DNA of 64,000 nucleotides, from positions 54,319 through 118,318 of the forward strand of contig AZLU01000043.1 in assembly GCA_002224055.1 (NCBI GenBank), written 5' to 3'. The notes under the pieces were generated by a model. It saw only the letters and a list, made by a program, of their open reading frames with translations, was not told where the DNA came from and made no database searches. Numbering within the stretch: position 1 is the stretch's first letter; each line of letters opens with the position of its first letter. Of this stretch, positions 4,773 through 64,000 are shown in pieces. This DNA is from Pezizomycotina sp. ARF18 (Eukaryota; Ascomycota). Both the position numbers and the translations under genes were made by a program.

Positions 4773-6699
4773 ATGCCGCAAATCCGCGTCGCCAAGTTTC
4801 GCCGCCCCCCAAAGCCTTCACCACCACCAATACAACGCCCCATCGTCACATCCCTCGTCACCTGTCCAACCTGCAATACCTGCGCCCACGATTATGACGA
4901 ATGCCCCCTTATCCCCGCAAGCCCACTACAAGGCGACCCTCCTCTTCAAATTTCGACTACTACACCCTCTCCGGCCCGCACGAATTCGAAGGCGTGGAAG
5001 GTTTCTCCAATCCGCACGCGGATAACCGTCCTCCAACTCCAGATATAAACCTCGTCGAGCTACGCGAGCGAGTACGCGTATCCCGTGAAGGGGTCGGCGC
5101 ACGAAGGGTTTACTGTACAAATTGCTGGGAAACGGACGAACATACGGCGGAGAACTGTAATAGAATGAGGATTAGCATTGCCGCGAGGGAGAATGTTAGG
5201 AGGGAGAGCGGGAGGTTGATGACGGATGCGTGGAGGGAAGAGTTGAAGAGAGCAGGGTACGGGACGAGTGGGAGGAGTGCGATGGAGGAGTTTGTGGAGA
5301 GGTATAACGCTATGGCGCCGAAATCGCGAGCTAGGGCGGAGAAGGAACGGAGGGAGACTGAGAAGGAGAAAATGAGAAGAGGAGGGATAGGATGCGAGAA
5401 AGCGGTGGAAAGACAATTTTTGAGGAGAAGAGGGTTGCTTTCCGACTCCCGCGAAGGCAGGGCGAGCTGTATGACTCCGAGATCGAGACGGAATCCCGCG
5501 GAGGAATTAAAAAGACGGGAACTTTGGAAAGGCGTGTCATCAGCACCCGCGCTTCACAAATGGCTATTGCCAAAACAACCATGGAGGAGCAGCGTCGCTC
5601 GGTTCGGTTCTCGGAAAAGACCAAGGGAAACAACGATTTCACGAATCTTGACAGGCCTCCAGCACGTCCTATCAGCGAAGGGGAACAGCTGTATGGGCAA
5701 ACTTGGCATGCCCACGAAAAACCTGCTGCGAACGATCCCCTCGTACTATTTTACGCCGCGCAGACCGTCATGCTGTCTCCACAGAAATGCTTAACAAGTT
5801 CGCTGTTCAAGATAATACCCACAAAGATAGCCGCAGCTTCCAACGGAGAACCCGAAAACAAGCTCCAAGGCTCCCGCAAATCAGGTCATCATCGATCTCA
5901 CGGATGAGCCGACTCGCTCAGCCCACCTTATAAGAAACTTGCATCGAATTCAAACCTTGCAGGACATCGGAATATAATACAAACTGGAGCCGTCGACAGA
6001 TCTCAGTGGGAGAAAAATCTTAGTAAGACCCTACGCGGTATTCAGGATCCTCGTCGTGCCGCGGCAGCGCAATCTCAAAGGACTTTTCATCAAAATACGG
6101 AAAAAACATTCCTGCCGACATTGCTCAAGCTACGACATCTAAACGTCAGCTTTAATCTCCAAAACAGCCACCACTAGCGGCGAAACACGCATCCGGTCCG
6201 GAATATCTCTTCCCAACCTCACCGGTTCTCCATACAACAACAAAAACTTCGAGACCGCCATTAAATCCATCACAGCCTCCCTCCGTCGCTTCCGCTCAGA
6301 AGTCCAACCGAAAGCAACAGAGCTGCGATCCGTCATGAAGCAAATCATGCACCTACTCACCGCCGACGCTTCCATCATAGACCGTATCCGCGCAGAGCTT
6401 GCGGAAACTTCAAGGGAAGAAATTACTTGTTTTATCCGCTCTAAATTGACCGCCGAGCCGCATTACGATGCGGGAATGGTCGAGATGACAAGGAGAAAGA
6501 AGCACTACGATCCGAGGCCGAGGGTTATGTGGGCAAACGTGGCGGATATGTGCGTTGCTGCTGAAGGAGGAACAGCGGCCGTGTGGTTGGGAGTGCGTTT
6601 GGTGGTGGTGGAGTTTGGATGGAGAAATTGAGGGTGTTATGGAGACGGTTGTTAGGGTTGAAACGGAGCTTCGTGCACTCGTGGAGAAACGAGATTAGG
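4773..6699 (+). CDS. NCW zinc-knuckle protein A (2 knuckles, SIM-like motif, helical C-terminus)
   Basis: The start is the ATG at 4773, preceded by an A-rich context. The first knuckle (about 4863) is a canonical CX2CX4HX4C. The second (about 5114) has the family form, C-T-N-C-W, then H, then C, with the tail reading RENVR and later W-x4-L and AGYG. An Arg/Glu-rich segment follows. Near 5882-5905 the peptide VIIDLTDE appears, a textbook-like SUMO-interaction motif. From about 6200 to the TAG at 6699 the protein is rich in predicted helix (IKSITASLRRFRSEV, IDRIRAELAET, and a final VETELRALVEKRD). A few frame changes interrupt the gene. No intron is certain. Function is inferred only: zinc knuckles usually bind RNA or single-stranded DNA. 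It lies head-to-tail with gene B. Confidence 0.7.
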
Positions 6700-7944
6700 C
6701 CCCCCATCCTTACATCGCAAGATGAACATATCACCCAGTGACATTCTTGGGGTTTCGAAAATATATTTCACATGGGTCTCTTTGATTTTCATTTTACTAT
6801 TATGCATTGTTTCACAGCCCTTTTTTTGAGCTGAGGTTTCAAGTTTTCAGTCGGCTATCCCGCAGGAACAGGAAAACAGAAGAGAATAAAAAAGGAAATT
6901 ACGCTGGAAATATCTTCCATTTTGATATTCTTCCTGCTTGAAGCTAAACTATAGCCTTTCGTTTTTGTGACATTATATTACTCATTTTATCAGTATGCAA
7001 GCGTTGATTAGCTTATTCTCTATATATTATATCCGAAATTCAATTCCGGCTAGAGACCGCGAAAAAATTTATCGTTTGGAATATCTATACACGTAGCATG
7101 TCAAAATATTTCATCCAATGACCGCTAACTTTGCCCCATTTCAGCGTCAACTTATCTCTAAGTCGCCAGTAATTCGTCTTCAAGTTGTTTTTAAATAGGT
7201 TTCTAGACTTTTTTTCGGGTGCTGAAGACTTGTTTCTTCTTGAATGGATGATCCGAAAATCCTTGGCTTCGAATTCAGCTTTTAGTTTTTTTTTTTTTTT
7301 TTTTTCTGCCTCATACTAGTATTTTGCTGCACCGATTTCCCCAACGCAAAATAACTCTCAGGGGAAAGGACTTTCTTCGCATACTTGAGCGACAAACAAA
7401 AAATAAAAAATATATCTATCTATCTTCAGAAAATTCAACTCGAACGACACCGCTCCGCTGCGACTTGAGCAGGCGCAAACACCATAAACCAAGGCAATAG
7501 CCACTGCGGTGAGGTTGTATTGTACTTCCACTGGGAAGCGTCCCTCTAAAGACTCTAATTCCTGTCTGCATGAAGATTTTTGAAGCTAACGTACGCATGT
7601 TATATTGTAGGCAATCCTCAATTGGGTATCTCTGGGATCGGACACTTTTTCAAAGAACATCCGGGCCTCCTCGAGGCTGAGAATTGAGTATTGGAAACAC
7701 GACCGGGAAAGTTTATGCTGGCGAGTTTGCTGGCTTGACATGAGAAAATTTGCTCCCCTTCACCGTAAATTCGCTACAACCTTTGCATTTTGTGTTTTCT
7801 TATCGTTTTTCGAGGGATTTCTTATTCAATTTCTTCAAGTATAAAAAGTTTCACAAGTGCCTGCGTGCTAAATCAATATTCTCGGCTTTCTTTGTACGAA
7901 AGGCATACTATCTCTGTCCTGGTTCTTATATTTTCATTTCTAAA
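6700..7944. other. intergenic A-B
   Basis: AT-rich spacer with a T run near 7288-7306. No RNA gene or repeat was recognised. The pyrimidine-rich stretch just before 7945 is likely the promoter and leader of gene B. Confidence 0.5.
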
Positions 7945-10365
7945 ATGCCGAGACTGGCATGCGATCACTGCGGCTCAGCCAGCACCTGGCGCCGCAGTGC
8001 AAGCGATGCCGCTCATGCAATGAATTCGGCCACATCTCCGGCGACTGTCCGCGAAACGGGGGTACCGGCTACTCCACCCTCGTCCATCAACAAGCCACTC
8101 AACTCCACAGGCACTCCAAAAAGGGCAACCACTATACTCTCCCCACCGTCCAAAAGCAGAGCCAGTACGATCTCCCCAGAGCTCAAAACGCATACGGGAA
8201 GTATGGCGATAATCAGCGGGCTCCGAGCTTGACGCTCGTGCACGAACAAACAGTTCAGAACTTCGGGCAGCCTCGTCCAGAGAGGCTCTGCTTCAACTGC
8301 TGGGAGTCCGATCGCCACGACGACTCTTGCTGCCCGCGTCCACGAGAAAGCATGGAGAAGAGGGATCAAATTAGGTACTCCAAGGGCATTCCCCAATTCG
8401 ACAGGTGGAATACGTTACTCGAACGCTGTGGCCTTGAACCTACGGAGGATACGGTTGGTTTCGGAATGCAAAGAAGAGCACGAAGGTTTCTGCTACGTAT
8501 GAGTCTACTTCTGTCTCGAAACAGCAATGTGGTGCTCCCCGTGAGCTCTTTCTCATGGATGATTCGACGACTTCTTCGGTTTCGAGTTTGCCTCCCGCGT
8601 CCTCTCAACCCAAAGAGATAAGACATGGTACTCGCAGACCGGGTCAATACCCTGGTACAGCTCATCAAACTCAATCGACTGTTCAATATCCATCTGCCGA
8701 ATATGAATCTCAACACGCTGAAGCGAAAAAAACCACCGAGCGCCCCAAAGTTCATTTTCAAGGGCTCAACCCAGACGGCAGTATGATCTCGCCACAGCCG
8801 CAGCAGCAGCGTCCTGACGATTTGATCCGGCTTAAAAGTGCACCAAACATGGCGACTAGGCGCGCCGAGGAAAAAGATCGTCACCGCCAAATGCTCTCGC
8901 AAGCCTTGCCGGCTGAATCCACTGCCCAAAATGATGGTTTCGAAGAGGAATATCAGAAACACCTGAAGCCGCCTGTTCCCCTTGTCATTCTTCCTGATGG
9001 TGTAGGACAGATTAGGTTGCCCGCCGATGTTGAAGCAGAAAGGGGGGAGCGTCGCAGGATTAGGAAGGAGAGGTCTGAAGGTAGCAAGACTCAAATTGTA
9101 GCTAAGCCCAACCCACTCGGGTCGACCTCCCAATCGGTATCCGCACGTGCTAGCGAAACTACTCAGAGTGTTGCTGGAAAGGCTACAGCAGGTTCCTCTG
9201 ACGCAATCAGTGTTCCGAGGAGGTCATCTACTTCCACTGTGACCAGCAGCTCCACCATGAAAGCAAACACAACTGCTGCTCCCGTTATCAACAACGCTAT
9301 CGCAATCGGCGAACTATCCGCCACGCCATCCGACAGCTGCGCTTCAATCGATATCACGACACCCTCGAAAGCTCCGCAGACAACGCAGGCGCTGCAGAAA
9401 CCCTCCAAACTCGGAACCACCCTAACCGACCTGGAAGCAGTCTTGAATAGGATCCTCGAAACCCAATCCAACCAGGCCGCCGAAATGCAAAACCTCTTTA
9501 GCTCCCGCGGAGGCGACGACGCATCCATCATCACCGCCTCGAAGAACTAGAATGCCGCAAAGACGAGCGCGACGAATTACTCGACAGCGTCGGCGAGCGC
9601 ATGGAGGAAATCGAAAAGCAACTGGAGACTCTTATATCTTCTAAATCTAAGTCGAGTGCGGAGAAATCTTTGAAGACGCGGAACGTCCCGAAGAGATCTA
9701 TAGCCGTATATTGAAGCTCGAAAATGCGTATAAATTAATACCTTCAATGCGTACTGTCGAATCACGCATTAAAGGTCTCGAGGACAAAATTCGCAACGAT
9801 CCGGCGGCGCACTACGATAATTCAAAAGCCCTCGGTGATGTGCGAAGCTTCGCGAACGACGTCAAATCCCGCCTCGGCGAAGTTGAAAACAGAGGGCTGC
9901 TAATAATGCGCAGACGAACGCGACCATAAGGAATATAATGAACCGGCTTGCGGATTTAGAGGACAATATTGCTACTACAACTCTCACTGGGAATAACGGT
10001 GCTAAAGGCGCGGTAGATGAGGATTTGCTACGCAGGATTGAAGATCTGGAGAAGCAGGCGGGAAATATTCTTTCGCCAAATATTATCATGGAGAGGTTCG
10101 ACGATATCGAGTCCACATCCAGGTTATCAAGAATTGGAAGACTGGAGCAGAAAATTCACTACAGCGAATCCAGAAAGATAACGTGACGAATAGGAAGGAG
10201 TCACTGGGCGATGCGTTAGCTCAGATCGTGGACCTCCAGTATGAAGTCCGTGAGGTTTTGAGGAGGCTCGGAATTATGGAGCGCCTCTGCAAGGAACTCG
10301 AGGACGAGGTCTTTCCTGACGGAGAAGGTACTGGTGAACAGCCGGAATATCAGCTTATTGAGTGA
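7945..10365 (+). CDS. NCW zinc-knuckle protein B (2 knuckles, Ser/Thr-rich linker, long coiled coil)
   Basis: The start is the ATG at 7945 (MPRLACDHC). The first knuckle (about 8007) is CRSCNEFGHISGDC, a canonical CX2CX4HX4C. The second (about 8289) is the family form C-F-N-C-W-x5-H with the tail MEKRDQIRYSKGIP, F-x2-W-x2-L and CGLEP. From about 8480 to 9550 one long open frame gives a Ser/Thr/Gln-rich, probably disordered linker (331 codons uninterrupted from 8555). From about 9550 to 10365 the protein is almost continuous heptad-like coiled coil (RMEEIEKQLETL, VESRIKGLEDKI, LLRRIEDLEKQ, VREVLRRLGIMERL). Several frame changes occur, mostly in the coiled-coil half. This is the clearest example of the family order: knuckles, linker, coiled coil. 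A multimeric nucleic-acid-binding role is inferred. Confidence 0.75.
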
Positions 10366-11707: not shown

Positions 11708-11712
11708 ATTTC

Positions 11713-11947
11713 TGTAGGATAAAGATTAAATTGTTAATTATATAAAGAATAAAACTATCTATCGAGAATATATCCTACCATTTATATAAAATAAATTTTA
11801 TAAAATAAATCTTTACGATATTAATATCTTTATATCGATATATACCGTTTATTATAAAGCTAGGCTAAGATTAATTAATATATAGCGCTATAGATAATTC
11901 TCGATATATTATATTATTTAATATTCTTTTACTACTTATATCTAATA
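11713..11947. repeat. left LTR of the large retroelement
   Basis: This 235-base terminal repeat matches 17090-17328 along its length once transitions are allowed. It begins TGTAGGATAAAG and ends ...CTAATA, where the right copy keeps CCAACA. The right copy retains more G and C, so it is less mutated. Confidence 0.85.
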
Positions 11948-12926
11948 GTTTTTTTTACCCGCTATAGGCCGAGGCCTCTCTATCTTTACGATCTAAAATA
12001 AAATATACTTCTAGCGCCTACCTTAGTTTAATAAATATTAGTAGAGCTAGCGGTTTAATAAATATATAGATAACGTTATTAGTCGATATAACGCGCGCTA
12101 GCGCGATCTTATAATCTTTAATTTTCTTTCTAATAAAATAATATTTAATATCGATATATTTAGTTTTTATTAACGTTATAAGCGCGTTTATAGCTAGATA
12201 GTAGACGCCTATATTATTAATTTTAATTTAATAAAAATTATCTTTTTATTACTAGTAGCCCCGATCTATTAGTTCTATAAATAGACTTAACTAGAGTATT
12301 TTTTTAAGCTATATTACCTCTTAATCGCGGTATTAAATACTATATATTCTATCTTTATTATTAATAGTAACGGTAGTTTATTTATAAGATATAACGATAT
12401 TATTTCTCTATATATTATAAAAACGTAGTTATTAACTAAGCGGCAATCTTAACTTAAATAAAGTTATTATTTATATATCTTTAAGGCTATATCTTTCTAT
12501 AGTATTACTCGAGCTAAAGCGTAGGCCGTACTTACGCGTCTTTATAAATAGCGTAGTAACCGCTATATCGCGATATATTATAAGTTCTTTAGATAGATAA
12601 TAAAAATAGCTAATTCTAACTAAGTAAAAGCTAGTTCTAAGTATATTTAAACTATTAATATTAAGTTTTTTTAGTTTACATAATAGTTTTTTAGTTAACG
12701 ATTAATTCTTCTTGAATGGTATAGAGCGGAATATTAAACTATTAGTATTATCGTAACTATATAGTTTTATATACTATAACGTTAAAGTAATCTATTAATA
12801 TATATCTCTTATAATAATATATCGTTCTTTATAATAATTCCTTTCGATTTAAGCTTTTAAGAAGTATATCGCGTTATTAAATTACTTAATATTAACCTAT
12901 TTAAATAGTTTTTTTTAATCTTATTA

Positions 12927-13571
12927 TGTCAGGCGCATCCGGGCGTGCCATGCCGATGTAGGACCTTCCTTAGTAACTAAGCCTACTACTAGGCCAGCTA
13001 GCAAAAAGTGACGAGTAATAAGTACTTATTCGCTTAAAGGTACGCTATAAGGTAGGTAGAGGACTACTACTCTAGTACTTACGGCCGTTATATATAGACT
13101 TAAGCTATCTCGAGGCTTACTACTTATAAGATATTAGCTTATATTATTCCCTTTTAGGCGCCGTTATACCGCGTACGGTACTAAGGCGTCGTACTACTCT
13201 ATATATATATTCTAAAAGGTATAGCCCTTTAGTACTTACCTAGTAAGACTAACGCTAGCGCTAGGCTAAATATCTAATATAGCTAGTTAGTACGTATTTA
13301 CTAAGCGCTAAGGCTTAAACTAAAGGTAAATAGGCTTATTTAGATATTAGGCGTATCTAAGCGTATTATATTAAATGTAGGACCTTTCTTAGTACTATAG
13401 CCTACTACTAGGGCTAGCTAGTAAAAAGGTTAGACGAGTAAATAAGCTACTTATTTGCTTAAAGGCACGCTATATAGGTAGGTAGGGGACTACTACCCTG
13501 GCCACTATACGGCCGTTACGTACAGGCCGAGCTACCTCGAGGCTTACCAATTGTAAGGCACCAGCCTTACA
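12927..13571. mobile_element. miniature LTR element (TRIM-like) nested in the large retroelement
   Basis: Two direct repeats, 12927-13143 (217 bases) and 13345-13571 (227 bases), enclose only about 200 bases of unrelated sequence. The outer edges read TGTCAGGCG and CCAGCCTTACA, fitting TG...CA. The 5-base duplication TATTA lies on both sides (12922-12926 and 13572-13576). At 645 bases with no coding capacity it fits a terminal-repeat retrotransposon in miniature, which would depend on another element for movement. It sits inside the large element, so it inserted later. It is less AT-rich than its host in places, which suggests fewer RIP cycles. Confidence 0.8.
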
Positions 13572-13722
13572 TATTAACTAGTTTATATATATAAATAAAT
13601 AAGTTATTAATAAATATAAAAATATATATATTAATACTTCTTATATTAATATCTCTTAAGCTATAGTATACTATATTATAATAATTAATATAATTCCTAT
13701 ACTAATTAATACTTTATAAAGT

Positions 13723-14134
13723 TACTATTCTAATATTAATAGCGAGATATGTAGGCTATATATCTTAATTTAATAAAATAAATAATATACTACGCTTTAT
13801 ATATTAATTTATTAAAATTATTCTATATTAGTATATACTCTTTAGATATAAATATATTTACTTATTAATTAAGCGCTAAATCCCTCTAAAAAATATAAAA
13901 AATAATATCTTTATATCGTACCTCGAGATTACTATTCTAAATTAATAGCGAGATATGTAGGCTATATCTTAATTTAATAAAATAAATAATATACTACGCT
14001 TTTATATATAATTATTAAAAATTAATTCTATATTAGTATATACTCTTTAGAGAAAAATATATTTACTTATTAATTAAGCGCTAAATCCCTCTAAAAAATA
14101 TAAAAATAATATCTTTATATCGTACCTCGAGATT
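13723..14134. repeat. tandem duplication of about 205 bases inside the retroelement
   Basis: Two head-to-tail copies (about 13723-13929 and 13930-14134) share 'agcgagatatgtaggcta', 'tatactctttag' and 'gcgctaaatccctc'. They belong to the body of the large element, so this is an internal duplication of the fossil rather than a separate mobile element. Confidence 0.7.
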
Positions 14135-17089
14135 TAACGCAGCGGCTATCGCTAAATAATATAATAAAAATTTAACGACTAATAAATAGATATCTATTAT
14201 TTTATTATTTATAAATAGCCTAGAACTATTAGTCTTACCTTATAATAAATAATCTATTCTAAACGTTTTATTTATAGTAAAATACCTACTTTAGCGGTAA
14301 TAAATACTACTACTTAATTCTTTTTAATTTATTTAATTAATTTTTATATACTATACTTTTTAATAAAATAGTCTTTTTTTATTACTACCTATTATTCTAC
14401 TTTTTCCGATAATTATACCAAGCATAAATAAAATATCTAAATCTCTAATATTTATATATAGCGAGAGCTACCGCGTAATAGAAGTAAAAAGCTACTCTAA
14501 GCGATAAACATAAAATATTATACTTTAATTTATTATATAGATTTAATCTAACGCTATTATAAAATAAAAAATTTATAATTTATACCGAGTTAAATTATAT
14601 ACTCTAATATTTTACCGCTATGTTTACAATTCTATATATTTTCTTTTTTTACTCTTATAGCGAGTTTATTAATAAATAATAATTCTTTATCTATATATAA
14701 TATTAATAAAATAGTTTACTAAATTTATTTATAGCCTCGATACGTATAAAGCGTCTATTATAAAGTACTTTTATAAATAATATATTTCTTAATTTATAGG
14801 TTATTAATAGCTTTTTCTATAGAATAAATAGTAGGTCTATATTATAAAATACCGCGCGCGCCTATTATAATAGTTAGTAAAAAGCTTTTACTACTCTTAT
14901 TTAACTAATTATATAATATACCGCTATACTTAATTTTATATAGGCTAGTATATTTTTAAATTTACTATTACTAATTAACCGCTATACTTACCGCCGCTAT
15001 TATAATAAATCGATGAAAATAAAATATAACGGTACTAAATCGCGTCTCTCGGGTTAAAGCGTTTATCATTATTTAGTAATTCGCGCCTTAATCTATTTAT
15101 CTATTATTACTAATTATCTTCTTATTACTATATAAAGTATTTAGCTATATTAGTTATATTATCGACTATATATTAAATCTATTATATTTTTTAAACTTTA
15201 CTATTATTAAGGCGCTATTTATATATCTATATTTACTCTATCTTTATGACGAGCGTTTATATTATATATTAAGCTATTTATAGTAGTTTTTATTATTCTA
15301 TATAGCTATTAAAAATATTTTCTCTACTTAGGCGTTTAAAGAGCGATTTTATCTATTTTATAATATTAAACGTTAATACGTCTTAATCTAAGAGATTAAA
15401 CGTTAGTTTTTATTTAATTAATTATATTATTAATAGTAGCTTAGCTTATCTAAATTTCTTATAATAAGACGTCAGTTATTATAACGACTTTAGTATTTAT
15501 TATTAATATTTACTTTAAGGCGTATATTTTTAATATAAGTAGCTAGAACGACGTAATTATTTTTATATATACGCGGTAAGGCGGTTTAAGCTATACTAAC
15601 TTCGTAAAACCTTTTTATTATTCTATAATATAATTACTATTTATATTTTAATATATTATTAACTATTATAAACTAATATAGTATATTTATAATATTATTT
15701 TAGTATCGTTATTTTACTTATATTTTATAGCTATCTATATTTAGTTTTTTTTTTTTTTAGTTTATAGCTAAGGCGGCGCCTTTTAGCTTTATAAAATAAT
15801 ATAATAGTTAGTAGCGGGTTAGCGTAAAAGGAGTTTACTTTATTTATTTAATATTATTTAAATAATACTACTAGCTGGCGCTATCTCTATAATTAAACTA
15901 GGTTTAAAATCTTTTTTTATTATTAGCGTTAATTATAAGATTAAAATATTTATAGTAGTATTATATATAGCTATATTTACCGTATATATAGTACTATACT
16001 TTTATATTAATACGCTTTATAGTAGCCGTCTTATTAGTTATCGCGGTTATTAAATTCTTCGTAGCTATAATCTTTTTTTTTAGAGAGCGTTTATATTATT
16101 TTAATATATTTTACTTTCTTTTACTACTATCGGTATTTATTTATTATATTAATATTTTTATTTGATATCTATTTTTATTATTATATAGATTATATTATTA
16201 TTATTTTTATTCTTTTTTTTTTTAGCGCGCTTATATTGATGTAAATTTATTATACGTAAGCTTTTATACTTTTTTAATATATTTTTTTTAGCTTAGTAGG
16301 CCTATTATTACTTAAAATTATTATAACGTCTATTATTATTAGTACGTAATAGAGAATAATATATATTATATAATTTAGATAATTTTTTTAAGATATTTTT
16401 AATAAGCTAATTATCGTAGAGTTTTAAGTTAAGAAGCCTTTAGTTACCTATTATTTTTTACGCGTTAATATATATATATATAATATCGTTATTTTTTAAT
16501 ATATACTTATTAATTAAGTTTAATATTTACTGATCGTCTCGTTATTTATAAAGTTTATAAATTTAAAGATTATCTAAACGGCCTATATCCTTTATTTATT
16601 AGCGTTAAAGTAATAAATCTACTTAATTTTTATTATAAAAGAATAAATATATATTATATTATAATAAGCCTATTATCTTTATTAAGCTTCTTATTTAAGA
16701 TCTTAATTTTATATAGTATTAGCAAGCTTTAATATACGAGTTTTTATATTAATTTTTAGAATAACTAGTCGCTATTTTACTTAAGTAGCGGGATAGAATT
16801 ATAGTAAATCGTTTATTATATAATATTAGATAGCTTATAGATTTAGCGCTATATAGTAGATATCTTCATTAGGGTTAGCGGTATAATATTAAGACTATTT
16901 ACTTTATTATAGCCGAGCGTATTTATAATATCTCCGATAGCGCGATAGGTGACGAGATAAAAATAGAATTATTTTTTAAAAATATATTACGTTACGAGCT
17001 TCGCGACGTTACTATCTAAGATCTAGATTATTATTTTATAATAGCGCGGGATATAGCTATTACTTTTTATAATATAGTTATTATTACTA

Positions 17090-17328: not shown

Positions 17329-17333
17329 ATTTC

Positions 17334-23821: not shown

Positions 23822-23852
<31 letters not shown>

Positions 23853-39011: not shown

Positions 39012-39044
<33 letters not shown>

Positions 39045-48429: not shown

Positions 48430-48462
48430 AGCCACTGCTCCAAGACGAAATTCGCGTCCACC

Positions 48463-49833: not shown

Positions 49834-52800
49834 TTAATAATGAATAAAGCAATCTATAGAACATTCCAAAGAACCAGTTCCCGTCACCAGTTTTGCCCGT
49901 GGGCTCTGAATTCCCACCTTAAATGAGTAAGACTCGCTCTCTGGGTCGTTGTCGTCCTCCGTATCAGAGCCCTGCGGGAAGTGGATAATCCTCCGGCTCC
50001 AGATCGTCCGTGTCGGGAATCCTCCGGGCGTGCTTTGTCCTCCGCATTCTTGTTCCAGCTCATTCTTAGTTTCGGCCTCGCTCTCCCCGTCTTTATTGTC
50101 ATTCAGAGCGACAAAAGCGTCTTCCTTGCTTTTAAACGGCTTCTTTAACGTTGTCGGGAGAAGATTTTTCGTGTTTCCTCAGCTTGGCGCCCGTCTTCTC
50201 CGCAGTACTTGTGTCGAAGCTTTGGGATCCTACAGAAGGAACAGGTTCATCTTTGTTCGTGGAGTCACCTGATGTAACAGGAACCCCGAGATGTCGATCG
50301 AGAATGGAGCAACGGAAGCTGCTGGGGCATTAGAAGCAGGTTTAGCAATAGCGACATCCGAAGAATCAGCTGAATTGCCGCTGGAGGATTTGGAATCGTC
50401 GTGAGCGGAATCTTTGCAACTTTCTCTTCGTCGAATCAGTAGCTACAGCGTTGGCTTCTGGCTTATCAGCAACACTGCTCGAACCCTCGTTATCCACATC
50501 GAGTGCACCGGCGGCTGGAATCGCTCCCTTTTCGATTTGGTTTCGGCGGGATTAGCTGTAGCAGCGTCTGTTGGGTTTGAAGATGGTGTTCCTGTCTATT
50601 ATTCGATGATCCGGCGTTGCTGTTGGTGGACTTCGGGTCTTCGGGAGTGCCGTCCTCATCCGCAAGTCCATTGGACTCTCGCTCCTTTTCAATCTCCGGG
50701 TCCGCGACCACATTCTGCTCTTCCGCTTATCAGTTGTGGTGAAGGGCGTATTAATTTGAGCCGGTGAGATGGTATATTCGGTTTTATCCGCAGATTCTGT
50801 ACTTTTCGGTGGGGGATGCTCGATGTTATCGCCGTTACCAACGGAATTGTCGAACTGATCTGACGGCAACGAATCTCCATTTGCAAGATCATCGTCGACA
50901 GTAACCCTCGTATCTGCAAGGCCGGCAAAATCCTCTTCAACCTTTGCAGTATCAGAAAGAGTCTTAGATTCCTGTGATAAATGATCAATCAGATCCTGCT
51001 TCTGTGAACCCTCCGGCACGAAAATCTTTCGTACCCTTGTCGTCGGAGTTATCGGGGTGAGACGATAAATCGAGCTTTAGAACCGGCTGCTCATCCTCGT
51101 GTTTTTCTTTCTCTTCTATCATTTGCCTTCTAAATCTTCTCCGCCGGATTCGGATCCCTCGCTTTCAGCGGATTCAGAATTTTGGGACTGACCAGAAATA
51201 GAGATATTATCATCGTCGTGCTGGCGGCGAAGCGCGGAAATAGATTCAGAGCTTTCGGCCAGAGAGTCCGCGTTGTCGTCATCGCTACCGTTACTATCTT
51301 CTTCGTCGGCATTATCCACTTTACTTTCAACTCCTGTCGGCTGTTCCTGATTTAATTGCTCAACTTCCTGGCAAGTGCAGGTCGTTCTACGGGATCTCCT
51401 TGCAACTGCGGCGCTGCTACTTGGGTAGTAACTGGCTTCTCCTGAATTTTAATCGCTGCAGGTTCGGTATTAATCGGCTTCTCCTCATCTTTGAGCAACG
51501 TTGGTGCGTCCATGGTTTCGTCATCCTTGCGATTTTCGACCTTGGCGGCCCGAGAAGCCTTAGCTTCACGAAGGCGCAAGTTTCCGGCTCTGAGGGCTGC
51601 GTTCCTGGCTAGTTCAATTTCGAGGAGTTGGTGCAGGGGCGCGGTGAGCCTTGCCAGATTGAAGTTGAGCCGATCGAAGCAGGCGGTTACTGTTTCGCTA
51701 GACCTCTCAGCGATTGGCGGAGCTCAACGTCGTTCTGTATATCATTCCGAGCTCGTTTTTCTGATTGCCGTTAACAGGACGATCGTTTGTACCGTTTTCG
51801 CGCAGTGCGTAAAAGATGTCGCATGTGTGGCGGAACAGTGTCGCCCGTTGTATTTCTCTCTAGCTTGCTCTACAAAAGCTGATTTCGCAAGCTTGTCCTC
51901 CCTTTTGTTGACAGAGTCGATGGATGAAATTCAAGCTTTGAGCATCGTTATCCCATGGCCGTGTTGGCGCTATCACGCTCGTCTAGTGGAGTTATACTGT
52001 AGGTCTTGTTAGAGGTGCAGTCTCCAGTGAAAAACAATCTTATTTCAAGCTCAGATTCTATTCCGTACGTACCATCCTCGTCCAACACCCGCTTCCAGTT
52101 GTACGTGAGAGGGACACCCTTTTTGTACCCTCAGCCTTTCCCTTCCGAACGGCAGCAGAGCCGGGTTTGGACAATCCCATGCTCGAATGTGTGATAGACT
52201 CACAGCAGTTCCTGCACATGATGCGGCCAGGATTAGGTCGTACATAACGTCCGTCGGCTTCGGCACGCCGAGCTCGATCCTCCTCATCTCACGCTCCGAT
52301 ATCTTTTGCTCCGGTTTCGGGCCTGATTAAATCCATGGTCTTGCTTTCCAGCAATTCCAGCAACGGAGCGCATCGTTGTTTTCCTTGGCTGCTTTTCGTA
52401 GGGTGGCTTTGGTGGGTGGTCGCTTGTCCATTGTCGAGAAGCCGTGCTTCGTCATGATTTCGTTCCATGCGCGGAAGAGAGGGACACCTTTCGCATGGCG
52501 GACGGCTTCGCTCTGCTCCAGCGGCAGCCTTGGCAAAGGGCAATCTGAGTGTTTGTGGCCGGCGACCTCCCAGCAATTCGGGCAGTGACCGTGAATAACT
52601 TCGTTGCATTCTTCCCTCAAGCGATAACCTTCGTTGACACAAGGTGGAATTAGTGATATTTTCCTAATATTTTTTTTTTTGCCTTCTTCCTTCTTTCTGT
52701 TTTCTCATCCTCTTTGACCTTGAGCAACTACTTACCGTGGTTTCCATGACTTTCTCCCAAGCCGGCCACAATGGCATCTGCATCTCAACCTGAGTTTCTC

Positions 52801-54260
52801 CGTTCGGCAACACTTCGCCATGGTCCAGGGCATTTCGAGGCTTCGTGCTCCTGGGTCTCCCACAATTGAAGCATTCTTTCTTCGCGCCGTCGTTTCTTGG
52901 ATACACCATAGCCTTGCGATCGCGTGAACGAGCCAGAGCTGATTCGGCTTCCATAGAGGCTTCGCCAACCCTTGGAGCAACGCGCCAAAGTTATCCACAA
53001 TCTTCTCCCATGGATGCGCAAATTCGACCGACCTTTCTTGAAGCGTATCATCTCGCTCTGACCGACCGTGAGCAACCTATGCGGGCACGAGGCGTCATCT
53101 GTGACCCATCTCCCAACAGTTGTCGCAGTAAGGGTTCTCGGTGGGATCGGTGCTTGCTTTCCTCGACCTTGGGGCGGATACCTGCCTCTTTCATGATAAG
53201 AAACCATTGGATGGACAGTGGCGCGCCCTTCTTGATTCTTTGCTCTTCTTGTCTCCCGTTTCCGAGCCTTTGAGCCGGACTTTTTCGGTGTTAGCAGTGT
53301 CCGCATTTTATTTTATTTTATTTTATTTATTTTTTTTTTAAAAAAAAGTAATAATTTTGGAATTTTCCGGGATTTTGAAATGTAGCTTAACTTACCAATT
53401 GCCAGCGTGGTGATCCCTGGAGTCCCAACAATTTTGGCAGAGCTTCGTGTCTGTGAACTTGAACTTGCTGCAAACTTCCGCTTTTACCCACGTTCCTGTT
53501 CACTTTTTTGCCGGCTGTATTCCTGTTGACGGTGATAGCTTCGTGCGTTTCCGCCTTTGCACGTTCGACGCCAAAGCGTCGCGCAGCAGGTTGGTCTCTG
53601 GCAACTCTGCCATCGCTTGACGCAGAAACCCGTGCAGCGGCACGCCGAGCTCGCGCCGCAAAGCTTCCTTTGCCGCATCGTTCGCTGTCCATCGAGCAGT
53701 TGGCGTAGTAGTGCCTGCCGGACCAGCAGTTCGCGCATACTATCTCCTTACACGGCCTCGGGTCTTCCAGATCGAGTCCCGGGACGGTTCTGATCACAGT
53801 GCGCCACCAGTCGGTCATCGGAACTTCGAGCTCTCGCCTTAGCAGTTCTTTCGCTGTAATCGACAGCTGCTTGCTAGGACTTTTTTTCCCCCCACGGGCA
53901 CAGATCAGTAAATGATCGACAGCTTGAAGCGGTATAGCACCGAATATGGCTTCTTTTGAATTGCCTCCAGTATCCCTTTTCCTTTCATTGCTTCCGATTT
54001 GATCAGGGGAAAAAAAACCAATGAATATAATGATGATCCTTCGAAACCCAGCAGTTCGCACAAAGCTTCTGCTCCGTCCCCTTTTTTCGTTTCTCCAGAA
54101 CCTTCTGCCACCATTCCGGCGCTGGAACGTCTAATTTACGCCTCAGAGCCTCCCTGGCGGCGATGGAAAGCTGCCGCCCGGCGGGACAAACCCGTGGTCA
54201 TGTCGGTCGCTCTTCAGCAGTTTGCACAGAGTTTTCTTTGTCGATTGCTGTACACCACAT
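49834..54260 (-). CDS. NCW zinc-knuckle protein J (9 knuckles, coiled coil, long acidic tail)
   Basis: The start is uncertain, near an ATG at 54260. Knuckles lie at about 54234, 54064, 53741, 53443, 53128, 52875, 52587, 52356 and 52221 (first Cys). The tails are clear: AREALRRKLDVPAPEWW, AKELLRRELEVPMTDWWRTV, AKEALRRELGVPLHGF, EQSEAVRHAKGVPLFRAWNEIM. The ninth has Cys instead of Trp. An intron (53280-53395) splits the fourth zinc-ligand Cys codon of module 4; splicing gives GNCPAQRL and runs into KKGAPLSIQW and EAGIRPK. A GTAAGTAG donor near 52738 marks a second intron. A coiled coil (HQLLEIELARNAALRAGNL) at about 51560-51670 is followed by a strongly acidic Ser-rich tail (EEDSNGSDDDNADSLAE, DTEDDNDPESES) to the TAA at 49834. 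The tail may be a second gene. Confidence 0.7.
53280..53395 (-). other. intron in gene J splitting a zinc-ligand codon
   Basis: GTAAGT donor, GCTAAC branch site 12 bases before an AAAAAG acceptor, 116 bases. Joining TG to T restores the Cys that closes the knuckle C-Q-N-C-W-D-S-R-D-H-H-A-G-N-C-P, and the following tail stays in frame for about 45 codons. Confidence 0.85.
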
Positions 54261-55590: not shown

Positions 55591-58500
55591 TTACCACCTC
55601 AGCTGGATGATGTTGGCGTTCGCCGTCTCCTTTAGAGCCAGGAAGTCGTAAATCATTCTCTCTACCTCGTCCAGAAGTGCCTCTGAGGCTTCCCACTCCG
55701 CTACTAGTTCCCCGTCTTCATTTAGTAGATCGCCACTTTCATACGTAAATACCCCATCTTCTGCTGTATCCATTCCAACTTATCCAACTGCTTATAGAGA
55801 ATGGTGCGTACAAGCGCATCGATCTCCTCCGAGCGATCGATAGCACTGCGGCGGCTACTAGTGGAGCTCGAGTTGGAATGGTCGGGGTCCTCGTCTCCGA
55901 GTCCGTGAAGAAGGTCTGGTTGAGCTTCTTGTGAAACTTCGAGCTCGTGTTGACTGGCTTCCTCTTGGTGATATAACCGTCGCCGCTGATGATGTCATCG
56001 ACAGGCAAAGGGATCATGTGTGGAGGAGTTTCGACGTCTTTGTCTTCAGCGTTATGGCCTTATCTGCGATTTCTAAAGCAGGAAGATTGTTCTCCGGTTC
56101 CGGGACGAGTGGCTGAGTGATTTGGGGCTGTTCGGGAGTGGTGATAGGCATTTTCGCCGGGCGGTTCGAGAGATCGAGTGATGGTCGATGGAGTCGCAAC
56201 TAGTTGGATAGTTTCGTCCTGCTCCTGTGCTTCCTCGTGTTGGTGGTGACAGCCGCAGCGACGTTTTCGTGTTCTTGTTTATCAAAGTCATCGATTATGA
56301 TCGCAGTGTCAGGTGTGCTCCCTGGAGGTGGCGAACGACTTCTTGGACCTTAGCCTGTTCCTCAGCAATATTCGGCTCGGCAATCTTCGGTTCGACCCGA
56401 GCAATAACTTCGGGTGTTTCGCTAATAATCGGTTCGGGCTGGTCCATCGGAATAATACCTCGCGGTCCAAAACGGACTTCCAGGCTCTGACATTCAAGGG
56501 GATTCCAAGCTCGACCCTCCTCTTCTCCCTTTGCATAGTGCTTAGATACTTGTGCGGACAATGCGTAGCTTCGTGAGTGGTGGACACCCACAATTCTTGC
56601 AACGGATGCCGGCGACCATATTGTCGTAGAGCGGATTCTTGGGTTTGGTAGCGTTTAATTTAATGCGAAGGTTTCTCGCGCTCGGAGATGCGCAGCTCAG
56701 GCTTCTTGCAATTCACACGCCCATGCCCTTCCTCCCAGCAATTCCAGCAACGAAGAGCTCGTACTCGTGGATGAATTTCTGGATGCCGCGGCGTCGTTTC
56801 GAAGCGCTCCTCAGTCGTCATGAACCCGCGCCTGCTCAGGACATCCTTCCAGTCTTGCTCGAGAGGTGCACCTTTGGCAAACCTCAGCTCTTCCTTACCT
56901 CTGATGCTGAGCTTCGGCTTCGGGCAATCAAAGTCCTGTGCAGCCTTTCTCCAGCAATTCTTGCACCAAATTTGCTCAACAGGGCGCAGACCAACGCTGT
57001 CTAGAACCCACTTCCATGAGTCCTCCAACGGAATTTGCATCAAGAACCGGAGGTTCTCTTTCTCCACGATCGTCAACTTTAGTTTAGGGCATGTATTGTT
57101 GTGATGCGTAATTTCCAACAGTTGTTGCAGTATTTACCCAGCGGAGGTTTGTCCTGATACTTTGGAGATCGCATTCTTGTCCACGATAACCTTTTTGCTG
57201 GGACGGTTTCGACTTTAGGGGGTTCTGGTTGGTGAAACGCTACCTCGGCAGTAGGTTTCTCAGTGTCGTGAATTTGGATGGCGACGACCTCCGGCTTCTC
57301 TACCTGAGCGTCTCTCTTGGAGTCGTCCTTGGTGACATCAAGGCTAATTTCGGGAACTTGTTCCTCATCGACGACCTGCTTTGGATTTTCTTCCTGAACC
57401 CCGTTGTCATTGTGAACGGGAGATGCCTTAACAGCGCCGACAGGCTGAACGCCACGTTCGCGTAGGGCTTGTTGCCAGTATGGGCCCGCAGGAACACCTT
57501 TCTTCGCCCTCAACCTTTCCCTGTCAGGAAAGTGACAGCTTAGGCTACCACAGCTCTTGAAGGTGTGATCGTCTGTCTTCTCCCGGCAATTAGTGCAATA
57601 ACCCTTCGTCAGATCGAAGTCCTCGAGTGGTTTAATACGTGCCTCTTCGATGAGGCTCTTCCATGCTGGATGTAAAGACATTTGGAGCTCGTAACGTAAA
57701 TTCTTCCCTGTCTGCAAGCGACAGCCTCTTCTCCGGACAATTCTGAGCGCGATGATTTCGAGTCTCCAGCAATTGTGCAATTGATGTGAATAATTCCAGG
57801 ACGGACGTCGGGGATATTTAATTTCTCTGGAGCAATGAATTTGACTCTTGCGAAATATAAGTGACTTGCGTGGACGGGAGCATGTTGCGCTTTCGTGTGT
57901 TCCGCCCAGTAATTAGTGAGCGGGGCATTGAGGCTACGCCGCAGCGCTTCCTTTTCGGGAATGTTGCGTTCTGGCTCTGGGCAGTTGTAAGAACGATGAT
58001 TCTTTCGACTTCCAACAGTTGACACAGTCGTCATCGTAACGGTCGACCGCGGGGACTTGAACCGGAGCGGCGACGGTGGAACCTTTGGTTCATTACCGTA
58101 GATAACGATTTTTTCGATAGGTGGAGTCTTCTGTTGGACAACCACTGGAACCAATGGCGCTCCGAGAGTATCAAAGATTTTTATCATCGACGTCAAACGA
58201 CACAAGGTTGATCGGCTTCTCAGGCTGTGACGATTCTCTTCGAAGCGACGACTGGCTCCTCAGGCTGCGGACGGTTCCCCTTACAAGCAACACCGAACTC
58301 GTCGAGTTCCCTTCCACGCGCTACTCACCGGAACTCCCTTCTCGTAACGTAAGGCTTCGCACTGCGAAACCGTGAGCAGCGGAGCTTCGCAGAGTAAGTG
58401 AGAGTGACGCGCTCCAGCAGTTTCGCAGAAAGTGGGGAAGAGACTCCTTGCCATTCCGATACCTTTCCTGGCACGGTAGCCTTCTTTCCCGAGAATTTTC

Positions 58501-60831
58501 TGCCACGATGACGGTAAGCCAACCTGTTTGAGGCAGCGGAGCTCTTCCCGCTCTGCGGTCGCGAGCTGGGGGAGAGGACAGTCGGCGGCGTCGTGAGTTT
58601 TAGTGTCCAGCAATTGAAACACTCTTTGTAAGTGATGGGAGTGCTTTTTTAGTAACTGCGGGTATTCGAACGTCCGGGATGGCGTTATTGGTGGCGACTG
58701 GCTGGACCGTGAGCTGTGTGATTATGTTCTTGCTTGCGGGCGTTTGGTTAATGGCAATCTGTTCCGTCGTGGGTTTCGCAACTCGGATAGTACCGTCATT
58801 TGCGGGAGTACTGTTTTCGACCGCTTTCTGGGAATTTTGGGCTGGTGGAGTCGACAATTCGCGACTGGAACCACGCCGGAATTTCCTCTCACGTTCGTCT
58901 CGTTCATTAATAGGCGGAATTCCAGCCTTCTTCAACTCGAATTTCCAGAACGGGTGTAGGGAATACCAGATTGTATCTCATACGTTCCCGCTCTTCTGTG
59001 CTCAGAGCGTCGTAGGGGCAGTCTTTAGGGTCGTGGTCCTGGCTTTTCCAACAATTCTCACACATCTTGAGATATTTATAATGACGAGGGAGAGACACGC
59101 CGAGTTGCTTCCTCAATGCTTCCCTATCTTGGATGCTTAGCTGGGACGGGTGCAATTGCTAGCGCTGTGACCCCTGTGGGACCAGCAGTTCCAGCACAGC
59201 TCGTCGCGGTGGTGTCGGAGATCTGAGGGTCGTGGATGTAATCGCCCCGTTTACGGCCGCTGTAGACGGCTACGCCGTAGTCCGCGAGGACATCCTGCCA
59301 GGAAGGAGTGAGGGGCGGTTGTTGACAGCGCGGAGCTCTTCGGACTCCGTGATAGCGTAGACGGGCGCCCCGCAAAGGTTGTGATGGTGCCCTGTTGCCA
59401 GCAATTTTCGCATACTCGCTTGGGTTCGGTGACGTGGCTTTCGCGCTGTCAGGGACGACTCGGGACGGAAACCGAACTCAATAAGGCATCGTTGCCAGCT
59501 CGGGAAGAGGGGAAGGCCCATGGCACACCTGATCTCTCGCGGCGGCCAATTGAATTCTGGGGCGCTCTGCAGTTCATTGTTTGTGATCGTCCAGCCTCCA
59601 ACAGTTAAAGCAAACTGTTGCAGTTTTGAGCGTCGGGCACTCGTTATAGAATTCTTGTCCCGAAGAATTTGTTTCCAGCAGGGCGGTGCGTCGATGCCGT
59701 GTTCGGTCATATGTTGGTTACTGATTTGAATTCGCAGCCCTGCGCGCGGGACAATTGAAGAAGTAGTGGGTCGTGGAAGCCCAACAATTTGTACAAGAGA
59801 TTTTCGCGGGCTTGGGGCTCGGTTGCCTGGGCCTGGCTGGTTGGGCTTCGCCTGTTCGACTACCTCCACCTGTGGGGGAGAAATTATCACGAGAGATTTA
59901 TCGTCACCTCCTAGTATTTAGTTTTGTTCAATTAGCTTCTGCTCCACAGAAGACAATGAAAACAAAGAAACGAAAGAACCAATAAACCAGGGGAAAGGAA
60001 AGGCAAAGGAAAAAGAAGGCATCGTGTATGTGAAATCTTACCATCCTGTGCTGCCGTCCTGCTCCTCCAGTTAGTGGAGTTCATCGCTCTGTTGGGACCC
60101 TTCAGTTCCGGACCTTCAGGAGTTCCAGGACGGACGCCACCTAACCACGCGCTGACCAGACTGCTGGTGCGCCTGAATTCGCACTGGTTAGGCCTCCAGA
60201 CCGCACGCCCTCTGTAATAATCTCCACTACTGACCGAACGAGCGCTCTGCGACGGATAGCAATCGCTCGGGTCGGATGCGGAGCTGGATATATTGAACAG
60301 GATAGGAATTGTAGTTCGGGATAAATTTCGGACCAGTGGGAACAGCCTTCTCAACCCTACGGGTCCTCCCGTTGCACCCCCGATTCGGGAGTCCGTCGAC
60401 AATCCTTTTCACCACCACTCCATGGGAATATTAAGCCGAATGCGCAACGCTTCCTTTTGGGAGATGGTTAGCGTGGATTGGGGCATTGATCCCATTCATG
60501 TGCGTTGGAGCGCCAGCAGTTGGCGCAAGTTCTAGGCGTATTGTACCGGGCTTTCATTGGGAGCCTGATCTTGAGCTTCTTCCGAAGCGCTTCTCGTTCG
60601 ACTGGGGTAAGTCGAGGCTGCGGCAGGACGTGGAACCGTGGCCCCCGCGCCAACAATTACAGCAAGCTTCTTGAGGTGGCCTCGACGGCGGACGGGGCGG
60701 CAGCTTCACCCCGGGTGAACCATCGCTTTTGAATCGAATCTGTTGAACCAGACACTGGTCAGTAAAGGAGCTAAACGTAGAGCAAGATGAAGAAAACACG
60801 CGGTGATCACGAGATTTGAAATGGAACTCAT
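55591..60831 (-). CDS. NCW zinc-knuckle protein K (16 knuckles, SIM-like motif, coiled coil)
   Basis: This is the largest family member. The ATG at 60831 gives MSSISNL, then a 71-base intron (60740-60810) and IRFKSDGSPG leading in frame to the first knuckle. The 16 knuckles have their first Cys near 60666, 60529, 59799, 59615, 59415, 59199, 59064, 58622, 58430, 58024, 57783, 57601, 57133, 56968, 56753 and 56604. Tails follow nearly all of them, for example VEREALRKKLKIRLP, QDREALRKQLGVSLP, EKEALRRSLNAPLTNYW, EKENLRFLMQIPLEDSWKWVL and GKEELRFAKGAPLEQDWKDVL. A second intron (59870-60041) joins in phase to AKISCTNCW. In module 14 the His is replaced by Gln. After the array come an acidic Pro-rich region, TAIIIDDFDK (SUMO-interaction-like) and a C-terminal coiled coil (EEIDALVRTILYKQLDKLEWIQQKM, SEALLDEVERMIYDFLALKE) to the TAG or TGA near 55591. 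Many frame changes occur. Confidence 0.75.
59870..60041 (-). other. intron 2 of gene K
   Basis: GTAAGA donor and a TCTCCCCCACAG acceptor, 172 bases, phase 1. The join AQDG-GGSRTGEAQP continues in frame through a Pro/Arg-rich linker to knuckle 3 (C-T-N-C-W-A-S-T-T-H). Confidence 0.8.
60740..60810 (-). other. intron 1 of gene K
   Basis: GTGATC donor (weak), TACTGACC branch-like site and a TTCAACAG acceptor, 71 bases, phase 0. It places the ATG at 60831 in frame with knuckle 1. Confidence 0.55.
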
Positions 60832-61346: not shown

Positions 61347-62329
61347 TTATAGCTCTCCAAGAGATCTCTTTACTTTTAATCTGCAGCCTTCTTTCCTAGA
61401 CAAAATGAACATGAGCTCTCTCAATGACGAGCTAATATCAGACAGCGTATCGTCCATTCTTCCTAGAGTTGTTCTGATCTCGTCCACGGACTCGTTGAGT
61501 TTGCCGACATATTTCGGCAACTTTGGTTGTGGAGCTTCAAGCTCAGCTGCTCCAGCTGTCCTATCGTTCTTCACGACTGGGGATAAGCCGACGAGGCTGC
61601 ATCCCCAGGATCACACCGGCCTCTCACGCCAGATATATCGAGCAAAATGAAGATCAGGTAGTGCTTTCTCTCGCCGAGAGAATAGGAGTGACGATGGCGT
61701 CACCCGTTCCGTCTCTTCTGATCAAAATCGATCAGGTTATCGTCAGCCGAGGCCACTGAAACTGTCGCGCGTTTGGAGGGAGCAGCGGCTTGATATTCAT
61801 CAGTTGACCTCCAGCGTCGTCGAAGAAATCGAATGGTTCATGAAATCCATTATCTTCAGCGGGAATATCTTCAGCTAGAATGGTTCCACGGACTTTATTA
61901 CAGCAAATACCAGAAAGTCCCTCCTCACTGTTTCCTCTTGTGTTTGTGATCTCGGCGCGTTTGCAGTTACATTTTCGTGACTTCATAAACCCAAACGCAT
62001 CCCTCTCCATACCTTCCACCCACAGCGGTATGCCAACCTCATTCTCAACCTCTCCTTATCTTCCATACAGCGCGGAGGCTCGGGACACTGTAATAGCACG
62101 TGTCGCGTAGTTTTCCAGCAGTTCCAGCAGCCGAGGACCCCTAGGACGTTCAGCCGGTATTTTTCGTCGGGTATTGGAATACCCTTGTCGAGGTGGAGAG
62201 CTTCTCGTTGTACGACGGATAGTTTTGGTTCTGGGGAGGGGATTATCCCTTTGCGGGGTGGTCGGAGGACCAGCAGTTCCAGCAGATGTCGTTGAGGTCG
62301 ACTGTGTTGGGATTGTTAAGAGGGGACAT
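61347..62329 (-). CDS. NCW zinc-knuckle protein L (2 knuckles, coiled coil)
   Basis: The start is the ATG at 62329 (MSPLNNPNTVDLND), directly leading to knuckle 1 (first Cys about 62288, C-W-N-C-W-S-S-D-H). Knuckle 2 (about 62131) is C-W-N-C-W-K-T-T-R-H with C-P-E-P. The tail of module 1, VQREALHLDKGIPIPDEKY, and of module 2, KERLRMRL, are intact. The middle is short and acidic (AEDIPAEDNGFHEPFDFFDD). The C-terminus is a compact coiled coil (LNESVDEIRTTLGRMDDTLSDISSSLRELMFIL) ending near 61347. It is the smallest complete member and shows the minimal family plan: two knuckle modules, acidic linker, coiled coil. A few frame changes. Confidence 0.75.
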
Positions 62330-62813
62330 GGAGTTCTTTGGTTGGGGTGGATTATAGAGGGGTTGTGGTTGTGCGTGGTGATAGATTTTTGTTATATGAG
62401 ATGTTCAGTTGTCAACCGGGGATTTATTGCACCAAGATTTGGGAGCAAATTTTTCAAGGGCTATAAACAGTGAAAACTTATTTTTAAAAAAAGAGGGATG
62501 AACAGAGTAGTAGAACAGAGATATATCCAGTATTATTATCATCGCCTTTCTCCAAGGGTCTGCAGGGACATAATACGCTGCTCTAAATTATAGCAGGTGT
62601 TTTGGAACGGTAGTGTAGTTCACTAGTATTTTTTGATTTCCGTTGTTATTCCCTCCACGATTCTGTAGACCGCTTATTCTTATCACCTCTCCTTACTAGC
62701 TGATAGAACAGTTAACACCTCTTCAAGTTCTTTTCGTGCTTGAAGCCTCCAACATTTTTCCTCTTCATCATTAAGTTCGTAACATGCAATATCGATCATC
62801 GTCCAGACTTCTA
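62330..62813. other. intergenic L-M
   Basis: AT-rich; likely promoter of L and 3' flank of M. Nothing else is recognised. Confidence 0.45.
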
Positions 62814-64000
62814 CTACCAGGTAGACCTAGTATCATTACCCAGCGGAAAGAAGAATTTGCTTTCGTCAACGCTCACTGCTAAGACGCGTTTCAGCTCCTG
62901 GACCGCCGGGCTGCGGCGCCAAACGTTAGTCTCCGCTTCGGTACTTCCCATCTTGACCCTATTATGTCCTTCAGTCTCAACCTGGGTAACCTCCTTAGTG
63001 TCCTCGCTCGTGCTAGGCCCGTCTCCGTCGTTCTCGAGTTCATTGCCGCTGACGTCCTGCCCAACGATATCCCGACCAAGCATGACGTTCGGATTGGAGC
63101 TGTTGTGGAGAGTACGACCCCTAGTCGGCGGATTACAGATCGAAAGGAGCTTCTCCAACTTTCGTTAACGTTCGTGAACAAGTTTTCGATACGAACGAGC
63201 GTGTCCGAGACGTTTCGTTTATCTGGTTGATCGAGACGTTAACACTCGCGCGGACGTCCTTGATCTGGTTACAGAGGTCTTCGAATTGTCCGTTCGTCAT
63301 CTGCATGTTACCGCCGTATCCGTCGCGTGCCCGTCCTACCATCTGATAACTACCCATCCCACCACTCCTACCCGTATCCGGAACCGATTCTCCGCGCTTC
63401 AAAAGAGTAAACAAGCTGATACCACCATTACTACCAGCGACGACGCCGTTATTCATACCAGCTCCAACTTCTCCAATAGCAATGCCCTCGTTATCCAACA
63501 TGACCCTCCAATTCCTCGACAGCGGCGCGCCGAGACGAACGCGTAACTCCTCCCTCTCTTTATTCGTAAGCTGCTTCGCGGGACACTCCGTGGCGCGATG
63601 AGCTCTGGAGCTCCAGCAGTTATAGCAAATCCCGTCGGCGAGCATCTGGTCGTACACCGAACCGGGAGGTTTCGGAACACCATGCGGACGCGGATGCGCT
63701 CCCGGTCCTGGACGGTAAGCTGCGGGCTCGGGCAATCAAAACGCTGGTGTCCAGTCCCCCAGCAGTTCCAGCAGCGGCGGTTGTCGCGGCGTTTTGGGAA
63801 GCGGGATTCGGGCTCCAGTTGCTAGCTGTGGTGCTGTTGTACTCGGAGGTAGCAGTGTAAACGCTGCCAAGTTGTTCCTGTTGGTTTGGGGAAGAGGGGA
63901 ACTCCATGGGGATGACGTCGTTAAGTTCGAGCATGCGGCGCCACGGTTCGGAGAGGGGGACGCCGGCTTCGACGCGGAGCTCCTCGCGCTGTTGGACGTT
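62814..64000 (-). CDS. NCW zinc-knuckle protein M (partial; at least 3 modules, coiled coil)
   Basis: The gene enters from the right edge, so its start is missing. The first visible piece is a module tail (QREELRVEAGVPLSEPWRRML). Knuckles follow at about 63777 (C-W-N-C-W-G-T-G-H) and about 63631 (C-Y-N-C-W-S-S-R-A-H), with tails VQDRERIRVRM and KEREELRVRLGAPLSRNWRVML then DNEGI. A Gly-rich linker leads to a coiled coil (FEDLCNQIKDVRASVNVSINQINETSRT and LVRIENLFTNVNESW, the second part in another frame). A charged segment (VGQDVSGNELENDGDGPSTSEDTKEV) ends at the stop near 62814. A few frame changes. Confidence 0.72.

Follow-up and report, generated by a model that had tools for sequence, protein, structure and literature searches.

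A locally amplified family of paired zinc-knuckle modules with predicted helical hairpins in Pezizomycotina sp. ARF18

A 64,000-base stretch of the ascomycete Pezizomycotina sp. ARF18, the window of this analysis, carries a family of genes assembled from copies of a short module, a zinc knuckle followed by predicted helices. The window spans positions 54319-118318 of contig AZLU01000043.1 (here C43; 236,894 bases) in a genome of 46.36 Mb and 408 contigs; coordinates below are those of the window unless a contig is named. The degenerate codon pattern for the C-x-N-C-W start of the module, TGYNNNAAYTGYTGG, matches the window 47 times, with 0.01 matches expected. A profile trained on modules of the window itself recovers 76 frame pieces scoring at least 11 bits; once merged, they make 66 modules (67 at 8 bits). 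The reversed window yields no match at 11 bits and two at 8, and ten dinucleotide shuffles yield one in total at 11 bits, controls that speak to chance only because the profile was trained on the same modules. When same-strand modules less than 1 kb apart are joined, 13 loci result on both strands, with 1-16 modules per locus; the number of loci shifts to 14 at a joining distance of 700 nt and to 11 at 1500 nt. A first-pass annotation of the same DNA had described 13 loci on both strands with about 66 copies and a maximum of 16, figures that the merged and joined profile matches reproduce. Its statement that these loci take up most of the coding sequence of the window is not established: taken together, the stretches of module sequence at the 13 loci come to 13,925 of 64,000 bases.

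Two kinds of knuckle can be told apart by the spacing of their ligands, from which zinc binding is inferred. Kind A has the canonical spacing CX2CX4HX4C, and kind B, CX2CX5HX4C, is one residue longer. A search of the DNA that required W, F, R, L, S or Y after the second Cys (Cys4) returned 57 readable knuckles, with X5 before the His in 34, X4 in 21 and X6 in two. Fourteen close same-strand pairs lie 125-170 nt apart, and in 12 of them A is followed by B at a distance of 137-149 nt, or about 49 residues; the other two are an X6-X5 pair at 166 nt and an X5-X5 pair at 134 nt. The A-before-B order is common to C43 and to two further contigs, C150 and C187. Because a one-base error breaks the frame and does not add a residue, the difference between X4 and X5 is unlikely to be an assembly error. 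In some short genes, read by eye (such as those close to C150:52.6 kb and C43:224.1 kb), an apparent Met stands a few to about 15 residues ahead of an A-B pair, and the pair therefore looks like the basic unit. What had been described as one module is thus real, with the correction that it comes in two kinds, mostly in A-B order. Its start had been called invariant; among pieces starting at profile position 4 or earlier, Trp after Cys4 is dominant (65 of 73 profile matches; 44 of 47 in the window and 21 of 26 outside), with three exceptions in the window and five outside. Members of the zinc knuckle family PF00098 usually, though not strictly, have a Gly behind the second Cys and another ahead of the His. 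Gly after Cys4 occurs in none of the 73 matches to the profile, which was itself trained on W, vs seven of ten other knuckles of the genome. A search that required W after Cys4 gave 45 knuckles; seven of the 16 A copies and three of the 29 B copies have Gly before the His, vs 9 of the 10 others. Position 2 is aromatic in 11 of the 16 A knuckles (W or F) and 15 of the 29 B knuckles (F, Y or W), 26 of 45 together.

The loci range from single modules to long arrays. On the forward strand, locus 1 (4901-5794) carries one B module (5114) after an N-terminal stretch, and locus 2 (7959-9550), whose span consists of two overlapping open reading frames (ORFs) in different frames, has a canonical CCHC knuckle at 8004-8051 and then a B module at 8289. 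Locus 3 (18701-19261, reverse strand) holds three modules with implied starts at 19261, 19120 and 18804, and locus 4 (23303-23552, reverse) an A module (23552) and a second module (23403), the frame being broken in both. The next five loci lie on the forward strand. Locus 5 (25356-26936) has five modules (25356, 25793, 26053, 26281, which is an A, and 26428, a B), including the in-frame A-B pair at 26269-26532 that was used for modelling; its charged C-terminal stretch, spread over other frames, failed a test for heptad periodicity. Locus 6 (28254-29929) also has five modules, at 28254, 28507 (A), 28654 (B), 28983 and 29133, and near 29.8 kb a piece that resembles a coiled coil (heptad p 0.016). 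Ten modules make up locus 7 (31238-33702), four make up locus 8 (35480-36319; at 35480, 35630, 36068, an A, and 36215, a B), and four weak and broken ones locus 9 (40388-40940). The remaining loci are on the reverse strand. Locus 10 (52111-54230) has eleven modules, several of them broken, and locus 11 (56498-60668) sixteen, possibly in more than one gene, as the 700-nt joining distance splits it in two. Locus 12 (62025-62284) consists of two modules (62284 and 62129). Locus 13 (62932-64000) has three, including A at 63773 and B at 63627, with a glycine-rich linker and a coiled-coil-like C-terminus; its gene starts beyond the window at about C43:118470 and extends at least to C43:117250 (window 62932).

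Beyond the window the family is found mainly on three of the 408 contigs. Three module queries run against the whole genome gave matches at E of 0.01 or better only on C43, C150 and C187, except for one at C285:11215-11328 (E 1.6e-4), and short stretches of C224, C285 and C312 hold module pieces scoring 33.5, 26.0 and 24.8 bits. Modules on C43 span 17 kb to at least 224 kb, with query matches on to 233 kb, and the window is the core of this span. From about C43:40.6 kb to the window start at 54.3 kb the contig is N, and the family may extend into this gap. Genome-wide, where all counts are lower bounds, the C-x-N-C-W pattern occurs at least 163 times vs at least 34 for the reversed pattern. 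The DNA read comprised 10.5 kb of the 100,348 bases of C150, 6.0 kb of the 81,072 of C187, and C43 except about 24.4 kb, about 13.7 kb of the C43 part being N. The concentration on C43, C150 and C187, together with the lack of any Pfam family over cut-off among the 24 B rows aligned from the window (14 of them with a complete knuckle), supports the earlier description of an unnamed, locally amplified family. Rapid expansion, by contrast, is doubtful: when 208 kb of C43 are compared with themselves, ten repeat pairs of at least 100 nt are listed, of which one, a probable assembly artefact, lies in a module array. Two others lie at or near divergent relatives at 189-196 kb. These relatives (C43:189.3-194.3 kb) have C-x-N-C-L knuckles with a Cys-x-x-Cys-Trp about 47 residues on, at one place readable in one frame.

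Helices after the knuckle are predicted for both kinds of module. For a 59-residue B module (63463-63639, reverse strand), AlphaFold2 supplied with the 24 B rows gave a best model with a mean predicted local distance difference test score (pLDDT) of 92.4 and a predicted template modelling score (pTM) of 0.77, in which the knuckle leads into a two-helix hairpin (helices 26-36 and 42-51). The model of the A-B pair places helices at 25-35 and 43-52 after knuckle A and at 75-83 after knuckle B, whose second helix falls outside the modelled piece. The helical tail proposed earlier is thus borne out in prediction. Foldseek run with the confident B model listed a single PDB chain (E 3.1) and gave no convincing PDB match; this lone match is not proof of a new fold, because small domains are hard for Foldseek. 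A C-terminal coiled coil had also been proposed, and it is supported at some loci and not at all of them: among five window pieces chosen by eye, three from two of the four loci concerned passed the heptad test (p < 0.05) and two failed. Outside the window all five pieces so chosen passed, although two, at C43:15.3-16.1 kb, may be part of an adjacent gene.

Among the closest named families is the zinc knuckle PF00098 (zf-CCHC). Known members of this family include Gis2/CNBP, SF1/BBP and retroviral nucleocapsid. An A module at C43:118044-118097 passes the Pfam cut-off (21.7 bits vs 20.8), as does the locus 2 knuckle (C43:62322-62369), and four of seven A-B alignment rows match at E of 1 or better (best 5.8e-4). 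None of the 24 B rows matches PF00098 even at E 1, and NCBIfam gives one weak match among them, to a 4-Cys prefix domain (E 0.0022). The earlier statement that the proteins fit no family that could be named therefore stands for the libraries searched, with the qualification that PF00098 recognizes some A rows and no B rows. The A modules share with PF00098 the CX2CX4HX4C spacing, and at position 2 many of them also have an aromatic residue; they differ in the Trp that takes the place of Gly, in their alternation with X5 modules and in the predicted hairpin. Among PDB sequences, retroviral nucleocapsid (E 0.0065) and ZCCHC8, a protein of the NEXT complex (E 0.039), are similar to the knuckle half, and B rows alone give weak matches to ZCCHC8 (E 0.14) and, over a single knuckle, to Air2 (E 1.4). 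The ZCCHC8 values are not significant, and the alignment covers the knuckle and about ten residues with nothing beyond; the likeness lies in a C-P-x-P-R after the knuckle and in an acidic knuckle. ZCCHC8 itself has one knuckle and then a PSP proline-rich domain. For ten ORFs, the B rows and the A-B rows, the listed Pfam matches include no PSP family, although broken frames could hide a later domain. Air1 and Air2 likewise carry several CCHC knuckles per chain, five in number, closely consecutive and without hairpin or coiled coil, whereas here the genes are many, A and B lie 137-149 nt apart and each locus has 1-16 modules. Where PMC11412873 deals with contracted families, a row of a table names an orthogroup of the CCHC type; that row is not informative here. 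The family is a real zinc knuckle variant, unnamed in the searched libraries, with a function that is only proposed.

The function tentatively favoured here is that of a scaffold, most likely for single-stranded RNA or DNA, formed by a locally amplified and probably intracellular family of paired knuckle and hairpin modules. Few genes have a full start; in those seen, no hydrophobic leader is obvious to the eye, which makes an intracellular location probable. Two Trp residues, one following the second Cys and one in the second helix, would pack knuckle and hairpin into a rigid unit, the A-B pair would be the binding unit, and serial pairs, with a C-terminal coiled coil at some loci, would build a multivalent oligomeric scaffold that may hold single-stranded RNA or DNA through the kept aromatic residue at position 2. 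In nucleocapsid the aromatic residue at this position stacks on bases, and its presence in more than half of the 45 knuckles speaks for a similar role. Several observations weigh against this reading. The knuckles are neutral to slightly acidic, with a mean charge of -0.31 for A (n=16) and -0.59 for B (n=29), vs +1.0 for the ten other knuckles of the genome, which come from five regions picked by PF00098 score, one of which supplied five of the ten (A, p = 0.034; B, p = 0.007; both kinds combined, p = 0.007; paralogues treated as independent). This acidity speaks against an electrostatic binder of the nucleocapsid kind. Trp replaces Gly after Cys4, and the nucleocapsid match spans the knuckle only. 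Conservation in the B alignment (N 16/16, Cys4 16/16, W5 18/18, H 20/21, R34 23/23, W45 15/16) is partly a matter of choice, because the rows were picked by the same motifs. The other four B models have pLDDT of 90.9, 83.0, 80.1 and 75.6, a spread of 75.6-92.4 overall; the A-B model, from seven rows only, has pLDDT 78.0 and pTM 0.57; and two of the ten coiled-coil pieces fail the heptad test. The nucleic-acid binding proposed in the first-pass annotation thus keeps the aromatic residue in its favour, with the charge and the missing Gly against it. Single-stranded nucleic acid may tentatively be placed first as the target of the scaffold, with protein only slightly behind.

Protein targets form the core of the strongest rival, a reasonable possibility in its own right, in which the modules are protein-protein adaptors: the knuckle would cap the hairpin, and arrays and coiled coil would assemble complexes, much as Air1 and Air2 hold Trf4 in TRAMP. 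The charge of the knuckles fits such a role, and the weak matches to ZCCHC8, whose own knuckle has a net charge of -2, and to Air2 both point to knuckle proteins of RNA-surveillance complexes; the position-2 aromatic, kept in 26 of 45 knuckles, argues the other way. Passages of one study describe Air1/2 knuckles as binding both RNA and Trf4, with decreased Trf4 binding in an Air1 knuckle-5 mutant (PMC4361618). Taken with the charge and the aromatic residue, this dual binding makes a multivalent scaffold likely.

Decay is a further alternative, and an improbable one as an account of the array as a whole, in which most copies would be dead pseudogenes. Thirteen of 67 modules change reading frame partway, and two loci read closely by hand shift frame every few hundred bases. 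However, 11 of the 13 breaks look like one missing base (two like one extra), and CCT chaperonin genes elsewhere in the assembly, essential in eukaryotes, are broken likewise; in one of them, read by hand, the frame changes at least four times within about 1.4 kb of coding DNA. Adjacent near-copies that differ mainly by gaps occur both in the family (locus 7, where 32785-33056, including a module near 32905, repeats 32492-32785 with 6 mismatches vs 21 gap openings) and away from any module array (C43:155385-155830; 1 mismatch vs 11 gap openings). Both are probably assembly artefacts arising from read errors, as the frame breaks probably are, and since the chaperonin genes are broken alike and the near-copies are dominated by gaps, the breaks do not count as evidence of pseudogenes. 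Among B modules, identity by codon position is 0.463, 0.517 and 0.335. Two paralogues (C43:199.1-200.1 kb and 205.0-204.1 kb), which align piecewise from knuckle through coiled coil, are under purifying selection: over 144 codons, with stop codons removed, the non-synonymous (dN) and synonymous (dS) rates are 0.33 and 1.42, although the ratio is a low estimate, a point to be set beside those that count against the scaffold, because the pieces were selected by protein similarity, which favours low dN. Control alignments shifted by one or two bases (131 codons each) give dN/dS ratios of 1.1 and 2.6. Some weak copies, such as those of locus 9, may well be dead.

The knuckle and hairpin may also form a new small zinc-binding fold, with A-B as a composite reader and the arrays as a diversifying recognition repertoire, an unlikely proposal at present. 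Copies that vary around constant Cys, His, Trp and Arg residues, kept as one gene-rich cluster, would make up such a repertoire, and the proteins might then serve inside the cell, for example, to recognize incompatibility partners or nucleic acid that is foreign or selfish. Least probable is an origin as captured or degenerate retrotransposon gag genes, which the Gag-like combination of knuckle and coiled coil and the nucleocapsid matches, the best in the PDB, would suggest, but RVT_1 occurs at no fewer than five places in the genome, none of those listed on C43, C150 or C187, no Gag family is among the Pfam matches listed for the ten ORFs, B rows and A-B rows, and neither an A-B spacing near 147 nt nor the hairpin is a known feature of Gag. 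An old domestication of the knuckle alone from gag is conceivable. Reverse-transcriptase matches, one with internal TGA codons, lie at C50:156.5-166 kb; C50 is probably mitochondrial, its reverse transcriptase being encoded in an intron.

The surrounding DNA holds a few further features. The block at 12001-16000 is AT-rich (GC 0.24), with TA/AT of 1.48 and (CA+TG)/(AC+GT) of 0.12, and is flanked by DNA of ordinary composition. Low GC with high TA/AT and low (CA+TG)/(AC+GT) is the signature of repeat-induced point mutation (RIP), here in an extreme form. A gene resembling phosphatidylserine decarboxylase lies at about 42637-43787, with stops within the match like other genes of the assembly. 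Two 290-nt stretches about 80% identical, C43:118718-119007 and, inverted, C43:184734-185024, may represent a promoter segment common to both places or else a small mobile element; the family gene at C43:118.5 kb lies directly downstream of the first. A chaperonin gene of the genome, read by eye, has introns; together with the RIP-like block, they give the genome the look of a filamentous ascomycete.

Zinc knuckles are usually small glycine-rich loops. Here the knuckle sits in a predicted compact unit of 55 residues, alternates with a form one residue longer and has been amplified into a gene cluster. The family serves as a caution that indel errors in an assembly can make a whole family appear dead. 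If expressed, it would also be an example of a binding domain, probably not secreted, that was amplified as a gene cluster in an apparently RIP-active fungus, and would offer a ready natural set of variants for asking what a knuckle recognizes.

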